A stretch of 39,936 nt of DNA, taken from positions 1 to 39,936 of the IMG/VR virus record IMGVR_UViG_3300046331_000266. One strand, given 5' to 3'. The notes under the pieces were generated by a model. It ran no database searches. It was not told where the DNA came from and was given only the letters and a program-made list of their open reading frames with translations. Shown here one piece after another: positions 1 to 39,936 of the stretch. A program made the position numbers and the translations under genes. This DNA is from a virus. Position 1 is the first letter of the stretch; the number at the start of each line of letters is the position of its first letter.

Positions 1-144
1 AGACATCTACACGACCAACAATCCCGGCGGTTACGGGCTTGTAGTGTGGATTCGTAACAAGGAGCTTGGCATCGAGACGGTCTACGGCCACCTCTCCGAG
101 CTTGCTGCTGGTATCAAGAACGGCGAACCGGTACGCGCTGGTCA
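1..144. repeat. Terminal overlap, copy 1 (pairs with 39793-39936)
   Basis: Bases 1-144 match 39793-39936 at 140 of 144 positions, as expected for the ends of a circular or terminally redundant assembly. The mismatches are clustered at 127, 128, 130 and 133. They change Glu-Pro to Asp-Thr in the M23 peptidase (the fourth, in a Val codon, is silent) but keep the frame. Confidence 0.95.
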
Positions 145-541
145 GGTCATTGCTCTCTCCGGCAACTCGGGGTTCTCGACCGGGCCTCACCTCCACTTCG
201 GTATCAGGCGCATCTACTGGATTGCCGGTGGCGCTGGTCCGTACATCAGAGACTACGAGAACGGATACTTCGGGTACATCGACCCGTTGCCGTACTTCAA
301 TGACGGAGTGTTCGACCTCGCCGTTGATAATGGCTACAACCTGAAGCCAGCGAAGAGTGAGTGGGACTGGTACAAGGATGCCGTCTGGTTCTACACTCAG
401 ACCAGACGCCTCCCGACCGTCCGTGAAAAGAAGGCGATGCTCTACGGACGTTGGGACATGCGTACCGTCCTCGACCCCGCAATGTTCGATACTTGGTCAC
501 GGTGGTCGAAGCCTGAAGCCAAGCTACGGAAAGCCATATAA
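1..541 (+). CDS. M23 family endopeptidase (endolysin), C-terminal part
   Basis: This is the downstream part of a zinc metallo-endopeptidase of the LytM/lysostaphin (M23) family, which cuts peptidoglycan cross-bridges. The frame enters at base 2 and joins the start at 39632 across the contig ends, giving 233 aa in total. In full-length numbering this part carries YGHLS (His84) and GPHLHFG (His117, His119), the family's active-site and zinc-ligand motifs. The other ligands (His35, Asp39) lie in the 39632 part. About 110 residues follow the catalytic core, rich in Trp and Tyr, and could bind the cell wall. It is the last gene of the plus-strand arm, behind a holin-like gene, and is followed by a terminator. 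The family call is firm; the lysis role rests on context. Confidence 0.9.
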   Translation, partial: DIYTTNNPGGYGLVVWIRNKELGIETVYGHLSELAAGIKNGEPVRAGQVIALSGNSGFSTGPHLHFGIRRIYWIAGGAGPYIRDYENGYFGYIDPLPYFNDGVFDLAVDNGYNLKPAKSEWDWYKDAVWFYTQTRRLPTVREKKAMLYGRWDMRTVLDPAMFDTWSRWSKPEAKLRKAI

Positions 542-5243: not shown

Positions 5244-5738
5244 TTAAACTAATCCAAGGATGATTCGTGTGGCAATTCGCCGCACTTTAACTGCTTCTTT
5301 TTTTGTGCCGTAGACTCCGAGCGAGAGGCACTTCTTCTTATAGAAGATTTGTGTTACCCATTTCTCGCCATTTTTACTTTTGAAAACACCAACCTCACCA
5401 CTTCTATTTCTTCTCCCAACAACCCTGTTTAGACAGTTCGCTTGGTGAGAAACAAGACGCAGATTACTTTTTCTATTGTCTAACCCGTCACCGTTAATGT
5501 GGTCAATTGTCTTACCGCTTGGTGGCTTGCCTAGCAAAACTCTATGCATCGGCAGGTACTTACCATGCACCGTCCTGTAAGCGTAGAAACCTAGACACCC
5601 CTTACGCCTTGGTCGGAAGTACCACTTATACTTCAACAACTCCTCAAGGTCACTTGCATCTACCCTTGCTTGCAACGGACCAGCTTTTTCATCTGATACA
5701 CTTGCGAATAAAGGTATCATGGCTGTCCGTTTTGTCAT
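5244..5738 (-). CDS. HNH endonuclease with AP2-like DNA-binding domain
   Basis: 164 aa with the layout of phage HNH_3/AP2 homing endonucleases: an N-terminal segment ending in YKWYFRPRRKG, the HNH core MHRVLLGKPPSGKTIDHINGD followed by LDNRKSNLRLVSHQ, and a C-terminal AP2-like region (GVFKSKNGEKWVTQI, LGVYGTKKEAV). The core His-Asn-His residues are present, so it should be active. It sits directly behind the deformylase gene with an ATGA overlap (5735-5738), a tidy insertion that leaves its neighbour intact. Confidence 0.88.
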   Translation of the reverse strand: MTKRTAMIPLFASVSDEKAGPLQARVDASDLEELLKYKWYFRPRRKGCLGFYAYRTVHGKYLPMHRVLLGKPPSGKTIDHINGDGLDNRKSNLRLVSHQANCLNRVVGRRNRSGEVGVFKSKNGEKWVTQIFYKKKCLSLGVYGTKKEAVKVRRIATRIILGLV

Positions 5739-6298
5739 GTGGTCTTAGGCTCAGGTTGTTTAGTTCCGATGTCTGCGATGCAGACTCCGTTCAGGTGGTC
5801 CACTTCATGCATGAAGACGTGTCCGAAGACGCCGTTCGACTTCTCGGTGTGCTGCTTGCCAGTGAGGTCGTACCAAGTACACCAGACGTACGGCCATCGT
5901 TCGAGTTGATACTCACCATCAGATGAGTAGCAACCCTCGACGACAATCTTCTTTGGCGTACCGTCTTTCGGAGCAACGAACGACGGATTGATGCAGACTC
6001 GTCCGAGAACAATGGCGATGTTCTTGTCGGAGCCAATCTGGTTGGCAGCGAGGCCGAGCTTGTGGCCATGCGTCACCGACCGGAGGGCCATGTCCATCTG
6101 TTTGAGGAGGTCGATAATCTCTCTGTCCTCAGTGTAGTCGTGTCCGGCGATGAGGTCGACAGCCCTCGTCCTGAGTGCGGGGTGAGGCCACTTGAGAATG
6201 GTCGGCATTGGTGGGTTGTACTTCTTCAGGAGGTACATTCCAAGCTTCGCTTTGGCGAGTAGGTACCATCCCTTCACGAGAAGGTAGACGCCTCTCAC
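5735..6298 (-). CDS. def: Peptide deformylase
   Basis: 187 aa. Peptide deformylase removes the formyl group from the initiator Met of new proteins. All three family motifs are present: GLAANQIG (82-89, motif 1), EGCYS (121-125, metal ligand Cys123) and HEVDH (164-168, metal ligands His164 and His168, catalytic Glu165). The first 30 residues are hydrophobic/basic and precede the usual start (MPTILKWP, Met31 at 6208). The 6298 start is used because it overlaps the upstream stop as ATGA, but 6208 is possible. Viral deformylases are known mainly from aquatic phages, where they are thought to support processing of host or phage proteins during infection. Confidence 0.93.
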   Translation of the reverse strand: MRGVYLLVKGWYLLAKAKLGMYLLKKYNPPMPTILKWPHPALRTRAVDLIAGHDYTEDREIIDLLKQMDMALRSVTHGHKLGLAANQIGSDKNIAIVLGRVCINPSFVAPKDGTPKKIVVEGCYSSDGEYQLERWPYVWCTWYDLTGKQHTEKSNGVFGHVFMHEVDHLNGVCIADIGTKQPEPKTT

Positions 6299-9433: not shown

Positions 9434-9676
9434 CTACGCTGCTCGCTTCAGTGCGGCCCGGCAGTCGGAGCAACGCTTCGGTTCCTTGACACGCTCGATG
9501 AGTCCTTGCGTTTTGAGGTTCTGCATGAACTCCTGCTCACCGACGGTCCACGTCTTGTGCATCTTGCACATCACGCAGATGAACGGCTTGTCGCTGAGTT
9601 CAAGGGCAGCGTCCTTCGACGCCACGTCGTAGTCGGTCGGGTCGTCGCTCACTTGATTGTCGAGTTGTTCATCCAT
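9434..9676 (-). CDS. Zinc-binding protein (PF13451-like), leaderless
   Basis: 80 aa. The C-terminal 50 residues (FICVMCKMHKTWTVGEQEF, then KRCSDCRAALK) match the small zinc-binding domain PF13451, with C-x2-C...EQ.F...RC-x2-C-R. The first 28 residues are acidic and probably disordered. The function of the family is unknown. The gene has its own consensus promoter, whose predicted start lies 1-2 bases before the ATG at 9676, so the mRNA should be leaderless. Confidence 0.82.
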   Translation of the reverse strand: MDEQLDNQVSDDPTDYDVASKDAALELSDKPFICVMCKMHKTWTVGEQEFMQNLKTQGLIERVKEPKRCSDCRAALKRAA

Positions 9677-10158: not shown

Positions 10159-11013
10159 CTACCGGTAGGTCAGACCGGCCAACGAACCGATGTACTTCCG
10201 GTGTTCTCCTGTCGATAGGATGACGTTCCAGTTACCTTGCGCGTCTTGGTAGGCACGGTCGCCGTCGATGTATGCCTTCTTCTTCCTGACCTCAGCGGTT
10301 GGATTTTCGAGGGCGTCCCACTGCTTGAAGATTGTTTCGAGCGACCACGAAAGCTCTCGCTCGTCGGCCCAGCGCTTAACGAGGTCTATCTTGGCACACG
10401 CACCCTCAACAGAGCCGGTTGCGTCGATGAGGTCTTTCGCCGGACGGACGAACGATGAGAACGTCCGACCGGGGAGGCTGCCCTTCTCCCAGCCCTTGGC
10501 TCGGAAGAAGTGTTCGACTACCTCTACGACCGGCGTTCGTTTCTTCACTGCCGGAACGTCGGCGTTCACAGTAACCGGTTCAAGCACCGCCTCCGTCGAA
10601 GACGGCAGGGTGTTACTTACGTTGTTTGTTTCTCCGTTTACTTGTTGCTCCGTATCCTTGTTACTTACCGGTGCGCTTTTGCCCGGTGCGAAAACGCACG
10701 GTGCGCTTTTGCCCGGTGCGTTTTCTGCACTCGGGAGCTTATTAAGTATGTAGTCCACCCTCCCTGAGTTGTGTCGAACACGAGTCAAGAGGTTAACTGT
10801 TTCGAGTTCCTTGAGTGCGGCGAGGACTGCCCTCTTACCGTCGTCTGACATGGCGGCGATGCGCTCGGCTGAGAAGTCCCAGCCATCAGGCTTGGACATG
10901 AGGTGTGCGTACACCCCCTTCGCTGAGAATGAAATCCTCTTGTCGTCGAGGACTGCGTTGGCTACCTGCGTGAATGGTATCTTGTCTGACTGGAACAGCT
11001 TGGTCTTTCTCAT
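10159..11013 (-). CDS. Replication initiator with N-terminal winged helix
   Basis: 284 aa. Residues 1-85 form a winged-helix HTH of the phage replication protein type (FTQVANAVLDDKRISFSAKGVYAHLMSK, SDDGKRAVLAALKELETVNLL). Residues about 95-150 are a low-complexity linker containing APGKSAP twice. Residues 160-240 are a helical domain (VVEVVEHFF, SFVRPAKDLID, WSLETIFKQWDAL) of the kind that binds a replicative helicase or its loader. Lambda O and Gram-positive phage replisome organisers share this layout. The linker DNA carries four iterons, so the protein probably binds its own gene. It is translated from a folded leader. Confidence 0.8.
   Translation of the reverse strand: MRKTKLFQSDKIPFTQVANAVLDDKRISFSAKGVYAHLMSKPDGWDFSAERIAAMSDDGKRAVLAALKELETVNLLTRVRHNSGRVDYILNKLPSAENAPGKSAPCVFAPGKSAPVSNKDTEQQVNGETNNVSNTLPSSTEAVLEPVTVNADVPAVKKRTPVVEVVEHFFRAKGWEKGSLPGRTFSSFVRPAKDLIDATGSVEGACAKIDLVKRWADERELSWSLETIFKQWDALENPTAEVRKKKAYIDGDRAYQDAQGNWNVILSTGEHRKYIGSLAGLTYR
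10615..10728. repeat. Four 15-bp iterons plus AT-rich stretch (candidate origin)
   Basis: CGGTGCG occurs at 10669, 10684, 10699 and 10714, exactly 15 bp apart. Units 1 and 3 are identical (CGGTGCGCTTTTGCC); units 2 and 4 are variants. Units 2 and 3 form an inverted pair (GTGCG-AAAA-CGCAC). The adjoining 10615-10667 is T-rich on the plus strand and could melt. The repeats encode the APGKSAP linker of the initiator. Iterons plus an AT-rich block inside the initiator gene is the arrangement of lambda ori in gene O. Confidence 0.65.
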
Positions 11014-11135
11014 GCAAAAAACGTCCGATAAGTGTTAGCCGCAGTGAGTTGGATGGCGGGGTCTGCTTTGCCAAACAACCCTTGCGGGTCGATGTGAGAA
11101 GTACTCACTACGACCAACACTCATGGGACGTTTTA
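11014..11135 (-). promoter_or_regulatory. Switch-like structured 5' leader of the replication initiator
   Basis: Directly before ATG 11013 the minus-strand RNA can form nested long-range stems: AAAACGTCC/GGACGTTTT (9 bp, 11126-11134 with 11018-11026), AGTGTT/AACACT (6 bp) and AGTGAGT/ACTCACT (7 bp), with an inner ACCC-GCAA-GGGT GNRA hairpin. A competing hairpin uses the same bases: GGTCG-TA-GTGAG-N5-CTCAC-AT-CGACC (11087-11115). The two folds exclude each other. The 3' strand of the outer stem ends in TTTTTT, 2 bases before the ATG. This is the architecture of an attenuator or riboswitch; no ligand or family can be named. Confidence 0.6.
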
Positions 11136-11464
11136 CTTGGCAGACTCTCTTCTCCACTGGTTCTCACGCCAGACCTACTACAATCCCGTGGGTTGGGGTT
11201 GATATGCCGAGTGGTACCTCTTGACCTTTTATGGGTCTATCGTTCAACCTACCCCCCTAATTTTGACAAATCCGGGGGTGTCTGTAGCCACGCTCCACCG
11301 TCCAGCCACAAGGTGTTCACCGTTGGGCCGGACAGGAGTGGTGGCTTGGCCAGAAAGAACAATGTCATTCGCGCATCGGAACGACTTGAGTATCCGACGG
11401 TGGAACACGGCGTGAAAGCAATGTCCGGTGTGGATAAGTGGTCGATGTGCGACCTGACTACTGA
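11136..11464. other. Untranslated stretch with a DnaA box and inverted repeats
   Basis: No convincing gene. It continues the leader of the initiator mRNA (promoter at 11465-11494). TGTGGATAA at 11429-11437 is a perfect DnaA box. ACCCCC (11251-11256) pairs with GGGGGT (11274-11279), with an inner ATTT-TGAC-AAAT stem. AGGTG-TT-CACC lies near 11311. The position next to the initiator suggests replication control. Confidence 0.5.
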
Positions 11465-11494
11465 ACTATACCACGAAAAGGCTACTGATGTCAA
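11465..11494 (-). promoter_or_regulatory. Sigma-70 promoter upstream of the initiator leader
   Basis: On the minus strand TTGACA (11489-11494), an 18-base spacer and TATAGT (11465-11470) with an extended TGG before the -10 box. Transcription would start near 11458 and give a leader of about 445 bases before the initiator ATG. The -35 box covers the stop of the upstream gene. Confidence 0.78.
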
Positions 11495-15988: not shown

Positions 15989-16021
15989 TCATGACCGGAC
16001 TTTGAAGGGCGAGGGCATAGG

Positions 16022-16050
16022 CTTATACAGCCGTCCACTCTTGCCGTCAA
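16022..16050 (-). promoter_or_regulatory. Promoter for the first minus-strand gene
   Basis: On the minus strand TTGACG (16045-16050), 17 bases, TATAAG (16022-16027). The expected start near 16015 lies 27 bases before the GTG at 15988. Confidence 0.7.
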
Positions 16051-16474
16051 TCGTTCAGCGGGGCGTGGCTACGCCGTTACCGCCATGATACAGTGAAAGG
16101 TGATTGACGCTAGGGCCATGCGTTGCATACTGCGACAAGGGTGTCATCGGTTCCCGCACAATGACGGGCCGTTCTAACTTTCCTCGCCGATTCCACAAAG
16201 GTGTCTTATCCGTAAACGATTGCACTTGCCGTCTTCCGTTGCTTAACGAGGCTAACGGTACGGGCTTGGCAGTAGGACTTTGGATATAGTCCAGTTAGAC
16301 AACGAAGGTTGTCAGTTCGTCTTCGACCCCGCCAATGGGGTCGTCGGTGGAAGCGTGTATGCGGTGCATGACGTGTTTTCAATCACGCTATTCACGTTGT
16401 CAAGGTATCCTCGTCAGTCGTTGCGCGTCACGATAGTGTATGTGCCGTTCTGGTCAATCCCTAGCGACTCCGTA

Positions 16475-16503
16475 ACTGTACCATGTCTCTCGGTCGTTGT
16501 CAA
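16475..16503 (-). promoter_or_regulatory. Minus-strand promoter in the hub (repeat copy 2)
   Basis: TTGACA (16498-16503), 17 bases, TACAGT (16475-16480), with an extended TGG before the -10 box. Its whole sequence closely resembles the promoter at 16733-16761. A GCGTAC hairpin lies just upstream. No start codon follows closely. Confidence 0.7.
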
Positions 16504-16732
16504 GGCCTGCGCGTACTGCGTACGCTTGGCGACCCCCTCCCCGCCGTCATAATGATGAACACTCGCGCCCGATAAGATATGTATACCTTCTTGGGCCATG
16601 CCTCGCGTTGTCCCTCGAAAGGGGTCGCGTTGGGCAAGCGTTCGATATGCGGTTGGGGAAGGAGCGTGTGCGATGTGGGAAGTGGAGTAGCAGGCACGCC
16701 TTGGCGTTCCCGTTCCGTACTTCCCTGCGGTC

Positions 16733-16761
16733 AGTGTAACATGCCCGTCAGTGGTTGTCAA
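16733..16761 (-). promoter_or_regulatory. Minus-strand promoter in the hub (repeat copy 1)
   Basis: TTGACA (16756-16761), 17 bases, TACACT (16733-16738), with an extended TGT before the -10 box. About 25 of 32 bases match the copy at 16475-16503, including parts of the spacer, so the two are duplicates of one element. Confidence 0.7.
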
Positions 16762-16919
16762 GGGCTTGTCGAGGGTTGTAATCAACAGTGGTTTAAGGGG
16801 AAGGAATGTTCCCGCTTGTTGCAACTTAGTGGCGTTTAGGGTGCTGGAAGATACTCTACCCTTTCACCTCCAATCTAATTCCAAGTCCCGCACTAGGATT
16901 TAAACTTCACACGTCAAGT

Positions 16920-17605
16920 ATTAATTCTTTCGTTGTTGTTTTTTATCTTGTTGTTTTCTTGCAGGTGTCGCATGACTCCCCCTCCCCTCCTTAGTGTATG
17001 TCGTACACGAACTCCCCGCTCTTTCTTGATAACTGTCTGACACTTTTGGGAAGTGGGATTGGGGTGGTGGGTGTTTCCTTTTTAGGATTGGGGGAGAGGG
17101 GAGGGTACGTCCATGGACCGGGACAATAATCACCAACGATTCTCTTGTGGATAACCTCTCATACTTGTCCACACCCTGCCGGGGGCAAGAGGCACTACAG
17201 GTACGACGACTCTCCCAACGCACACAAGGTACGTTAGAGTAAAACCCCTCAGCAGAATGATTGGCGAAGACTTTGTGGTACGAGAACGCACATTTAAGTG
17301 CGCTGCCGGTTGGCTGTCGGACTGACAGTATACGGACTCAAGAGGTCGAGTTCTACAGGAATCCTTGAGATTCACTGAATGTTCTCGTGGGCCGGTCACT
17401 ATGTACCCACTCTTGCTCTCCCCGCTTTTCAGCGTTCGTGACGGTGACAGAGGCAGTCAGCCTTCTGCTCATCGGTAAGTCTCTTGCTTCGCCCTTGAGC
17501 TGCCCCGTTTCATAAGGTACAGCCGTCTGTGCTTCCTGCTGGATTGAGTACGTCATCGACAGGAAGCCCCGTATTCAGTGGACTATGCACGAACTTATCC
17601 ACTGA
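16920..17605. other. Candidate replication origin (DnaA boxes, T-rich tract, G4 motif)
   Basis: A T-rich tract (16926-16962) stands out in a GC-rich region. TGTGGATAA (17146-17154) and TTGTCCACA (17165-17173) are inverted DnaA boxes, one perfect and one with a single mismatch, 10 bases apart; TTATCCACT (17595-17603) is a third. GGGAAGTGGGATTGGGG followed by TGGTGGG (17048-17071) fits the four-run G-quadruplex rule and a second G-rich run follows. GTCCATGGAC is a palindrome near 17110. The site lies between the two divergent arms. Confidence 0.5.
17353..17556 (-). CDS. Possible small protein in the hub (67 aa, doubtful)
   Basis: 67 aa from the ATG at 17556, with reasonable amino-acid composition (QQEAQTAVPYETGQLKGEAR, then SVTVTNAEKRGEQEW). 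It is the first ATG frame after the strong promoter at 17647-17675. The ATG lies in the loop of an 8-bp hairpin (GCTTCCTG at 17531-17538 with CAGGAAGC at 17560-17567). Arg codons AGA, AGG and CGG are commoner than in the main genes. It could equally be chance. Confidence 0.25.
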   Translation of the reverse strand: MTYSIQQEAQTAVPYETGQLKGEARDLPMSRRLTASVTVTNAEKRGEQEWVHSDRPTRTFSESQGFL

Positions 17606-39665: not shown

Positions 39666-39936
39666 ACGCGCTTCGCATCACGCAGCTCTTCGGCAAGAAC
39701 TACCTCGACTACGGACAGTTCGGGATGAAGGGTCACAACGGACTTGACCTCGCTTGCCCCGTTGGGACCAAGGTCTACGCCACGCACTCGGGAGACATCT
39801 ACACGACCAACAATCCCGGCGGTTACGGGCTTGTAGTGTGGATTCGTAACAAGGAGCTTGGCATCGAGACGGTCTACGGCCACCTCTCCGAGCTTGCTGC
39901 TGGTATCAAGAACGGCGACACCGTTCGCGCTGGTCA
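39632..39936 (+). CDS. M23 family endopeptidase (endolysin), N-terminal part
   Basis: The first 101 codons of the lysin that continues at base 2 of the window. The start ATG 39632 overlaps the holin-like gene. HNGLD (His35-Asp39) is the first zinc-binding motif, followed by LACPVGTKVYA, the usual start of the M23 core strand. There is no signal peptide, so export would need the holin. At the end of the window the codons read Asp-Thr at positions 96-97, where the other copy reads Glu-Pro. Confidence 0.9.
   Translation, partial: MPPVTRLNSPLDALRITQLFGKNYLDYGQFGMKGHNGLDLACPVGTKVYATHSGDIYTTNNPGGYGLVVWIRNKELGIETVYGHLSELAAGIKNGDTVRAG
39793..39936. repeat. Terminal overlap, copy 2 (pairs with 1-144)
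   Basis: Matches bases 1-144 at 140 of 144 positions; see that entry. The four differences are in an 11-base patch starting 18 bases from the contig end. Confidence 0.95.

Follow-up and report, generated by a model that had tools for sequence, protein, structure and literature searches.

The window, by which we mean the whole 39,936-nucleotide stretch of DNA analyzed here (IMG/VR virus record IMGVR_UViG_3300046331_000266), carries head and tail genes on the plus strand; its minus strand contains the early and replication genes. Among these is rep (Table 1), the N terminus of which is matched by PHROG families 37920, 428, 270, 678, and 345 (with matches down to 1e-17 and 4e-13), by RepA-like initiators of phage records, and, slightly under the cut-off, by Pfam HTH_36. 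Four iterons, rendered by the repeat-finding tool as three overlapping 22-mers, lie within the rep coding sequence and are likely to be the replication origin. In phage lambda, the iterons likewise lie inside the initiator gene, O. With both an O-like/HTH_36 N terminus and iterons in its coding sequence, rep has the features of a lambda O-type initiator with an internal origin, in keeping with the first-pass annotation, which had called the gene a replication initiator. The last ∼125 residues of Rep (window 10159-10550) form a domain present in 49 of 384 genomes from the class of a Nomurabacteria metagenome-assembled genome (MAG); in those 49 genomes, it often stands behind a different N-terminal region. 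Because this domain occurs in the MAG class and exonuclease cousins are found in Nomurabacteria and Levyibacteriota MAG contigs, the host of the virus is likely to be a member of the Patescibacteria. Further, we note that a nearly identical M23 peptidase-like stretch is encoded at both ends of the window (1-300 and 39790-39936), which suggests that a circular or terminally redundant genome overlaps at its ends, and that a peptide deformylase gene (window 5735-6298, minus) has a similar-looking counterpart in the cousin phage G001 (L036:3222-3983, minus).

Directly upstream of rep, the minus-strand sequence from 11134 to 11018 folds into a single rod made up of 9 bp, a C·C mismatch, 22 uninterrupted bp, and the apical region. 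The two arms are 32 nt each and, as minus-strand RNA, form 27 Watson-Crick and four G·U pairs around the one mismatch. The leader had initially been described as nested stems of 9, 6, and 7 bp; these pairs are present, but they do not make separate stems, being parts of one 9 + 22-bp rod joined by G·U pairs and by pairs that had been missed. The GNRA-capped hairpin within it, with a GCAA loop, is as first described.

Table 1. Positions of the features discussed in the text (window coordinates unless a locus is named)
Feature	Position	Strand	Basis or content
rep, replication initiator	10159..11013	-	N-terminal HTH_36/O-like domain and C-terminal domain common in the class of a Nomurabacteria MAG
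Iterons within rep	10669..10720		CGGTGCG every 15 bp, four copies
U6 tract	11016..11021	-	adjoins the base stem and is separated from the start codon (ATG 11013) by two bases; order U6-GC-AUG
Rod 3' arm, ACUCACUGCGGCUAACACUUAU C GGACGUUUU	11018..11049	-	fold, inverted repeat
Apical region, 53 nt	11050..11102	-	GCAA-capped hairpin 11091-11086/11081-11076 and small hairpin 11073-11070/11057-11054
Alternative hairpin, GGUCG-UA-GUGAG UACUU CUCAC-AU-CGACC	11087..11115	-	nascent-RNA prefixes, enforced fold
Rod 5' arm, AAAACGUCC C AUGAGUGUUGGUCGUAGUGAGU	11103..11134	-	fold, inverted repeat, genome ranking, shuffles
Upstream leader part, structured	11135..11457	-	5'-terminal GGUCG-CACAU-CGACC hairpin, long-range helices, inverted repeat
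Promoter TTGACA-18-TATAGT, extended -10 (TG)	11465..11494	-	11/12 consensus matches, minus-strand promoter scan
60-nt block and long hairpin in cousin phages	L010:5270-5500; L036:17080-16860	L036 minus	compensatory changes

The predicted energy of the rod RNA is -61.3 kcal/mol compared with a mean of -32.9 for shuffled sequences (z -8.1), and none of 200 shuffles was as good. The rod ranked first among 3,982 windows of the genome in a GC-corrected energy ranking and is the top inverted repeat of the window. Its stem score, the best found (33.0, minus strand), was matched in none of 120 dinucleotide-shuffled genomes, in which the maximum was 24.0; Gumbel extrapolation gave ∼2e-6. The rod is unusually long and clearly non-random, and the hairpin noted in front of rep is not only real but stronger than first thought. 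The score depends on the strand, being 33 for the minus and 23 for the plus strand. Further, all transition-type imperfections are G·U, and none is A·C, in minus-strand RNA; this holds for four of four in the rod and for three of three in a second inverted repeat of the leader (11396-11411/11287-11302, 16 of 16 positions paired), and seven of seven would be expected with a chance of 1/128 if both orientations were equally likely. This bias suggests that selection acts on the minus-strand RNA or on minus-strand DNA in single-stranded form.

The best nearby promoter lies upstream of the rod on the same strand as rep, and the rod therefore sits in the leader of rep itself. Transcription from this promoter would start near 11457, implying a structured leader of ∼445 nt before rep; the z score for structure is -3.6 for the upstream 320 nt alone and -5.8 for the whole 450 nt. 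It is one of six early minus-strand TTGACA promoters scoring 10-12 of 12 (window 7214, 9713, 11494, 16503, 16761, and 17675). One of the others (9713-9685) is so close to the ATG at 9676 that its mRNA would be nearly leaderless, and two similar promoters stand in tandem (16761 and 16503) in a stretch of ∼1.5 kb devoid of convincing genes (15990-17529), possibly a non-coding RNA or control region. The outer stem of the rod ends, as had been noted, in six T just before the ATG of rep, and no other minus-strand T6 occurs in the first 25 kb of the window. The start codon is not part of the stem, and no Shine-Dalgarno sequence precedes rep; such a sequence was seen for two of the 32 ATG open reading frames of at least 150 amino acids in the window and for none of 27 in the cousins (L036, L010, and L012). 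An ordinary intrinsic terminator of this phage is found at 548-567. The rod has a stem and a U6 tract, with a loop of 53 nt, and was not called as a terminator by a standard scan (loop 3-8). The decamer CACATCGACC occurs at the start of the leader (window 11440-11449, minus) and again in the apical region (11087-11096, minus), each copy within a GGTCG...CGACC inverted repeat, a recurrence near chance level for 1.3 kb. Two open reading frames in the leader, of 220 amino acids on the plus strand and 81 on the minus strand, had no Pfam match.

The first-pass annotation had further proposed two mutually exclusive folds, with a local 10-bp hairpin as the alternative. This hairpin exists, as two 5-bp helices around a 2 × 2 internal loop (-13.5 kcal/mol alone), and it takes its bases from the distal stem and the GNRA hairpin, as proposed. 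In predicted minimum-energy folds of the growing RNA, it is present in prefixes ending between 11087 and about 11035, and the rod replaces it in longer ones; the alternative hairpin is therefore plausibly transient during transcription. The nascent RNA favors it, but against shuffles of the loop its excess over chance is only modest (p = 0.018 by minimum free energy and 0.125 by duplex energy). When enforced, the alternative fold gives a three-way junction of -54.5 kcal/mol compared with -61.3 for the rod, and it keeps the outer 18 bp, including the 9-bp base stem, and U6. Because the base stem and U6 are kept, the two predicted folds do not separate a terminator from an antiterminator, as the two folds of an attenuator would, and their exclusion alone would not switch a terminator. 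The first reading is corrected chiefly on this point: two folds there are, and the leader position, promoter, and U-tract of an attenuator-type build stand, but the exclusion that would make a terminator/antiterminator switch does not.

An Rfam search of the hairpin returned no family at the gathering score, the best relaxed match being a microRNA precursor far under the cut-off. The matches to MIR7125 and SNORD47, both far under their cut-offs, were taken as chance matches to a long hairpin, and a group I intron, a riboswitch, or another Rfam family was rejected for want of a match. The suggestion of a riboswitch thus found no known aptamer family in Rfam to rest on, and neither a ligand nor a switch by the two folds alone is supported. 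No homologous leader of the rod was found among the relatives, viral contigs, and 384 MAG-class genomes searched: a degenerate DNA scan for the rod arms in viral contigs gave none, and the leader had one 23-nt match, at chance level, in the 384 genomes. Searches for close relatives via terminase, portal, capsid, and exonuclease found cousins, and those tested had no detectable rep homologue or leader match. An alignment of 11 rep sequences was too divergent for searching, and a five-sequence alignment yielded 10 loci.

Among 29 rep loci compared, the window, L048, and L002 had a top-ranked long hairpin before rep, whose counterpart was suggestive in the group of phages Tank and SilentRX and unremarkable in most others; we therefore rejected the notion that all such reps have a long hairpin. 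L048 is an IMG/VR contig with a distant HTH_36 initiator homologous to rep, and its leader resembles that of the window in having long arms (25 bp), a large loop (47 nt), and a TTTTTTGC tail before the start of the homologous gene. It differs in that its arms have no sequence similarity to those of the rod, a local terminator hairpin lies in the 3' arm, and 55 nt separate the hairpin from the start codon. In this contig (L048:2849-2945), each arm contains a CAATTG palindrome, the 3' arm can fold into a terminator of its own with TTTTTT behind it, and the long fold and the local terminator fold exclude each other. The Arthrobacter phages Tank, Rizwana, AWGoat, and SilentRX have a gap of ∼250 nt before a homologous rep and a hairpin near the start, a layout resembling that of the window, but their stems are of 12-16 bp, their sequences are unrelated, and a true Shine-Dalgarno sequence lies in a hairpin of its own. 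We note that, in the last 90 nt before rep in these four phages (L013, L016, L022, and L023 for SilentRX, Tank, Rizwana, and AWGoat, respectively), a conserved hairpin hides this Shine-Dalgarno sequence (ATCTCC/GGAGAT) and that, in SilentRX, this hairpin and a 13-bp hairpin upstream of it are mutually exclusive because the 5' arm of the former shares bases with the 3' arm of the latter. Hairpins before rep are shorter in L002 and in the Tank and SilentRX phages, the leader of L057 consists of tandem hairpins, and several of the related rep genes lack a leader gap altogether.

The cousin phages L010 and G001, the former with a sequence identical to one in the Nomurabacteria MAG, have a common 60-nt block (93% identity) followed by long hairpins. 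Between the 22-bp arms of the two hairpins, in an alignment hand-fitted to the arms, there are seven double and three single changes and no broken pairs. Sliding the partner by 1-3 columns left 0-2 double changes compared with seven; this control is better than the two-sequence shuffle, which is weak by design. The comparison shows that, in this phage group, pairing is what is kept in at least one long hairpin of an early gap, although it is not homologous to the rod of the window and does not stand in front of rep. In L010, a local hairpin resembling a terminator (AAGGGC-GCAA-GCCCTT, then CTTTTTT) overlaps the 3' arm of this long hairpin. Further very long hairpins, intergenic or early, were seen in related phages at L036:18130-18400, L036:13990-14240, L012:1770-1990, L012:5095-5300, and L038:400-540, and no Rfam match covers these hairpins of L036, L012, and L038.

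Overall, the rod most likely looks like an RNA-level brake on rep, and we tentatively read this brake as terminator-type attenuation, which is favored because a U-tract lies at the foot of the stem and a promoter upstream. From elements computed or seen directly in the sequence (the rod and its excess over shuffled sequence, the promoter, the U-tract, the initiator gene with iterons inside it, and the folding order as predicted), we infer that an RNA is made, that its transcription is terminated or its translation blocked, and that the level of the initiator is thereby set. RNA polymerase would start at the 11494-11465 promoter and make the ∼445-nt leader, a cis-acting brake ending in the long rod and U6 at the start codon. 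The local 10-bp hairpin would form first, and the 9 + 22-bp rod would zip up as its 3' arm emerges with the polymerase at the U-tract, so that the rod would act as an unusually long intrinsic terminator and only a fraction of transcripts would reach rep. In read-through transcripts, an AUG lacking a Shine-Dalgarno sequence stands directly behind the end of the stem, and translation may be limited too. In favor of attenuation, we count the rod beyond chance, the near-consensus promoter, the U6 tract at the base, the one-sided G·U pairs, the z score of the whole leader, the late formation of the rod at the U-tract, the ordinary terminator elsewhere in this phage, and, as indirect support, the L048 leader and the compensatory hairpin of the cousins. 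Known intrinsic terminators have short loops, and a terminator would not usually have so large a tip or a mismatch near its foot; against attenuation, we count the apical region, the C·C mismatch close to the U-tract, and the silent terminator scan, together with the base stem kept in the alternative fold, the failure to find a homologous leader, and the related reps that have no gap.

Attenuation of a plasmid rep leader is known from pT181. In pIP501, transcription of the leader before the initiator gene (RNAII) can end early, and this attenuation needs a 136-nt antisense RNA (RNAIII) from a facing promoter (PMC4981023). The window resembles pIP501 in having a leader before an initiator gene with a candidate early end of transcription, but it has no consensus-like facing promoter, and its two folds both keep the terminator-like base. 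Because no plus-strand site facing the hairpin scored at least 9 of 12 between 10132 and 11989, antisense control of the pIP501 type is not indicated. In phage P4, premature termination occurs in a replication leader, from which the immunity RNA (CI RNA) is processed; the window shares an early leader before a replication gene, with a terminator-like end, but yielded no CI-like RNA or target pairs.

The RNase III-controlled leaders of Escherichia coli pnp and rnc have a double-stranded structure next to the regulated gene (PMC3997798), as the window does, and exemplify the main rival reading, a rather doubtful one, in which host RNase III would cut the 22-bp duplex, or a protein would bind it, and translation of rep would depend on this. 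The uncut rod would hide the region upstream of the AUG, and cutting would yield a short or leaderless mRNA. Duplexes free of interruptions are favored by RNase III for cutting, and the 22 consecutive pairs (four of them G·U) make such a duplex of about two helical turns; in phage genes lacking Shine-Dalgarno sequences, accessibility at the AUG should also matter. This reading leaves U6 unexplained, however, and the AUG is not itself in the stem; unlike the pnp and rnc leaders, the rod ends in U6 and sits on a phage initiator gene, and its cleavage is putative. An unregulated rod, serving simply as a terminator or as a stable structure of the mRNA while rep is expressed from constant read-through, is unlikely: a hairpin with a U-tract and the weak significance of the alternative fold would fit, but with a strong promoter upstream and the rod inside rep's own transcript, an unregulated terminator would waste transcripts. 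We consider it highly unlikely that the promoter makes a ∼445-nt structured RNA ending at U6 that works in trans or exerts feedback on the leader; the promoter, the terminator-like end, and the two CACATCGACC copies, both able to pair with part of the 5' arm, are consistent with this, but the decamer repeat is near chance, and such an RNA has no known target. A DNA-level element (the palindrome as a protein site, a cruciform, or a single-strand initiation site beside the origin) is very improbable, since, for all its distance of only ∼300 bp from the iterons and the identical G·U bias that a single-strand site on the minus strand would give, the imperfections and the stem score favor one strand and the likely origin lies inside rep.

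If the reading of the rod as a terminator-type brake is true, it would represent leader-RNA control of replication in a phage of the Patescibacteria, a huge and barely cultured bacterial branch in which, to our knowledge, little is known of gene control. It is conceivable, though improbable, that Patescibacteria phages control early genes, including initiators, by long rod-shaped leader RNAs that lie in early intergenic gaps, are free in sequence but kept in pairing, and act on elongation or RNA processing in hosts whose phages hardly use Shine-Dalgarno sequences. Even if the rod neither terminates nor blocks, it would still be a natural long duplex at a start codon, useful for studying Shine-Dalgarno-free translation start. 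The compensatory changes in the leaders of the cousins suggest that leaders of this kind are a repeated theme in this branch, and these cousin leaders provide concrete, testable sequences.
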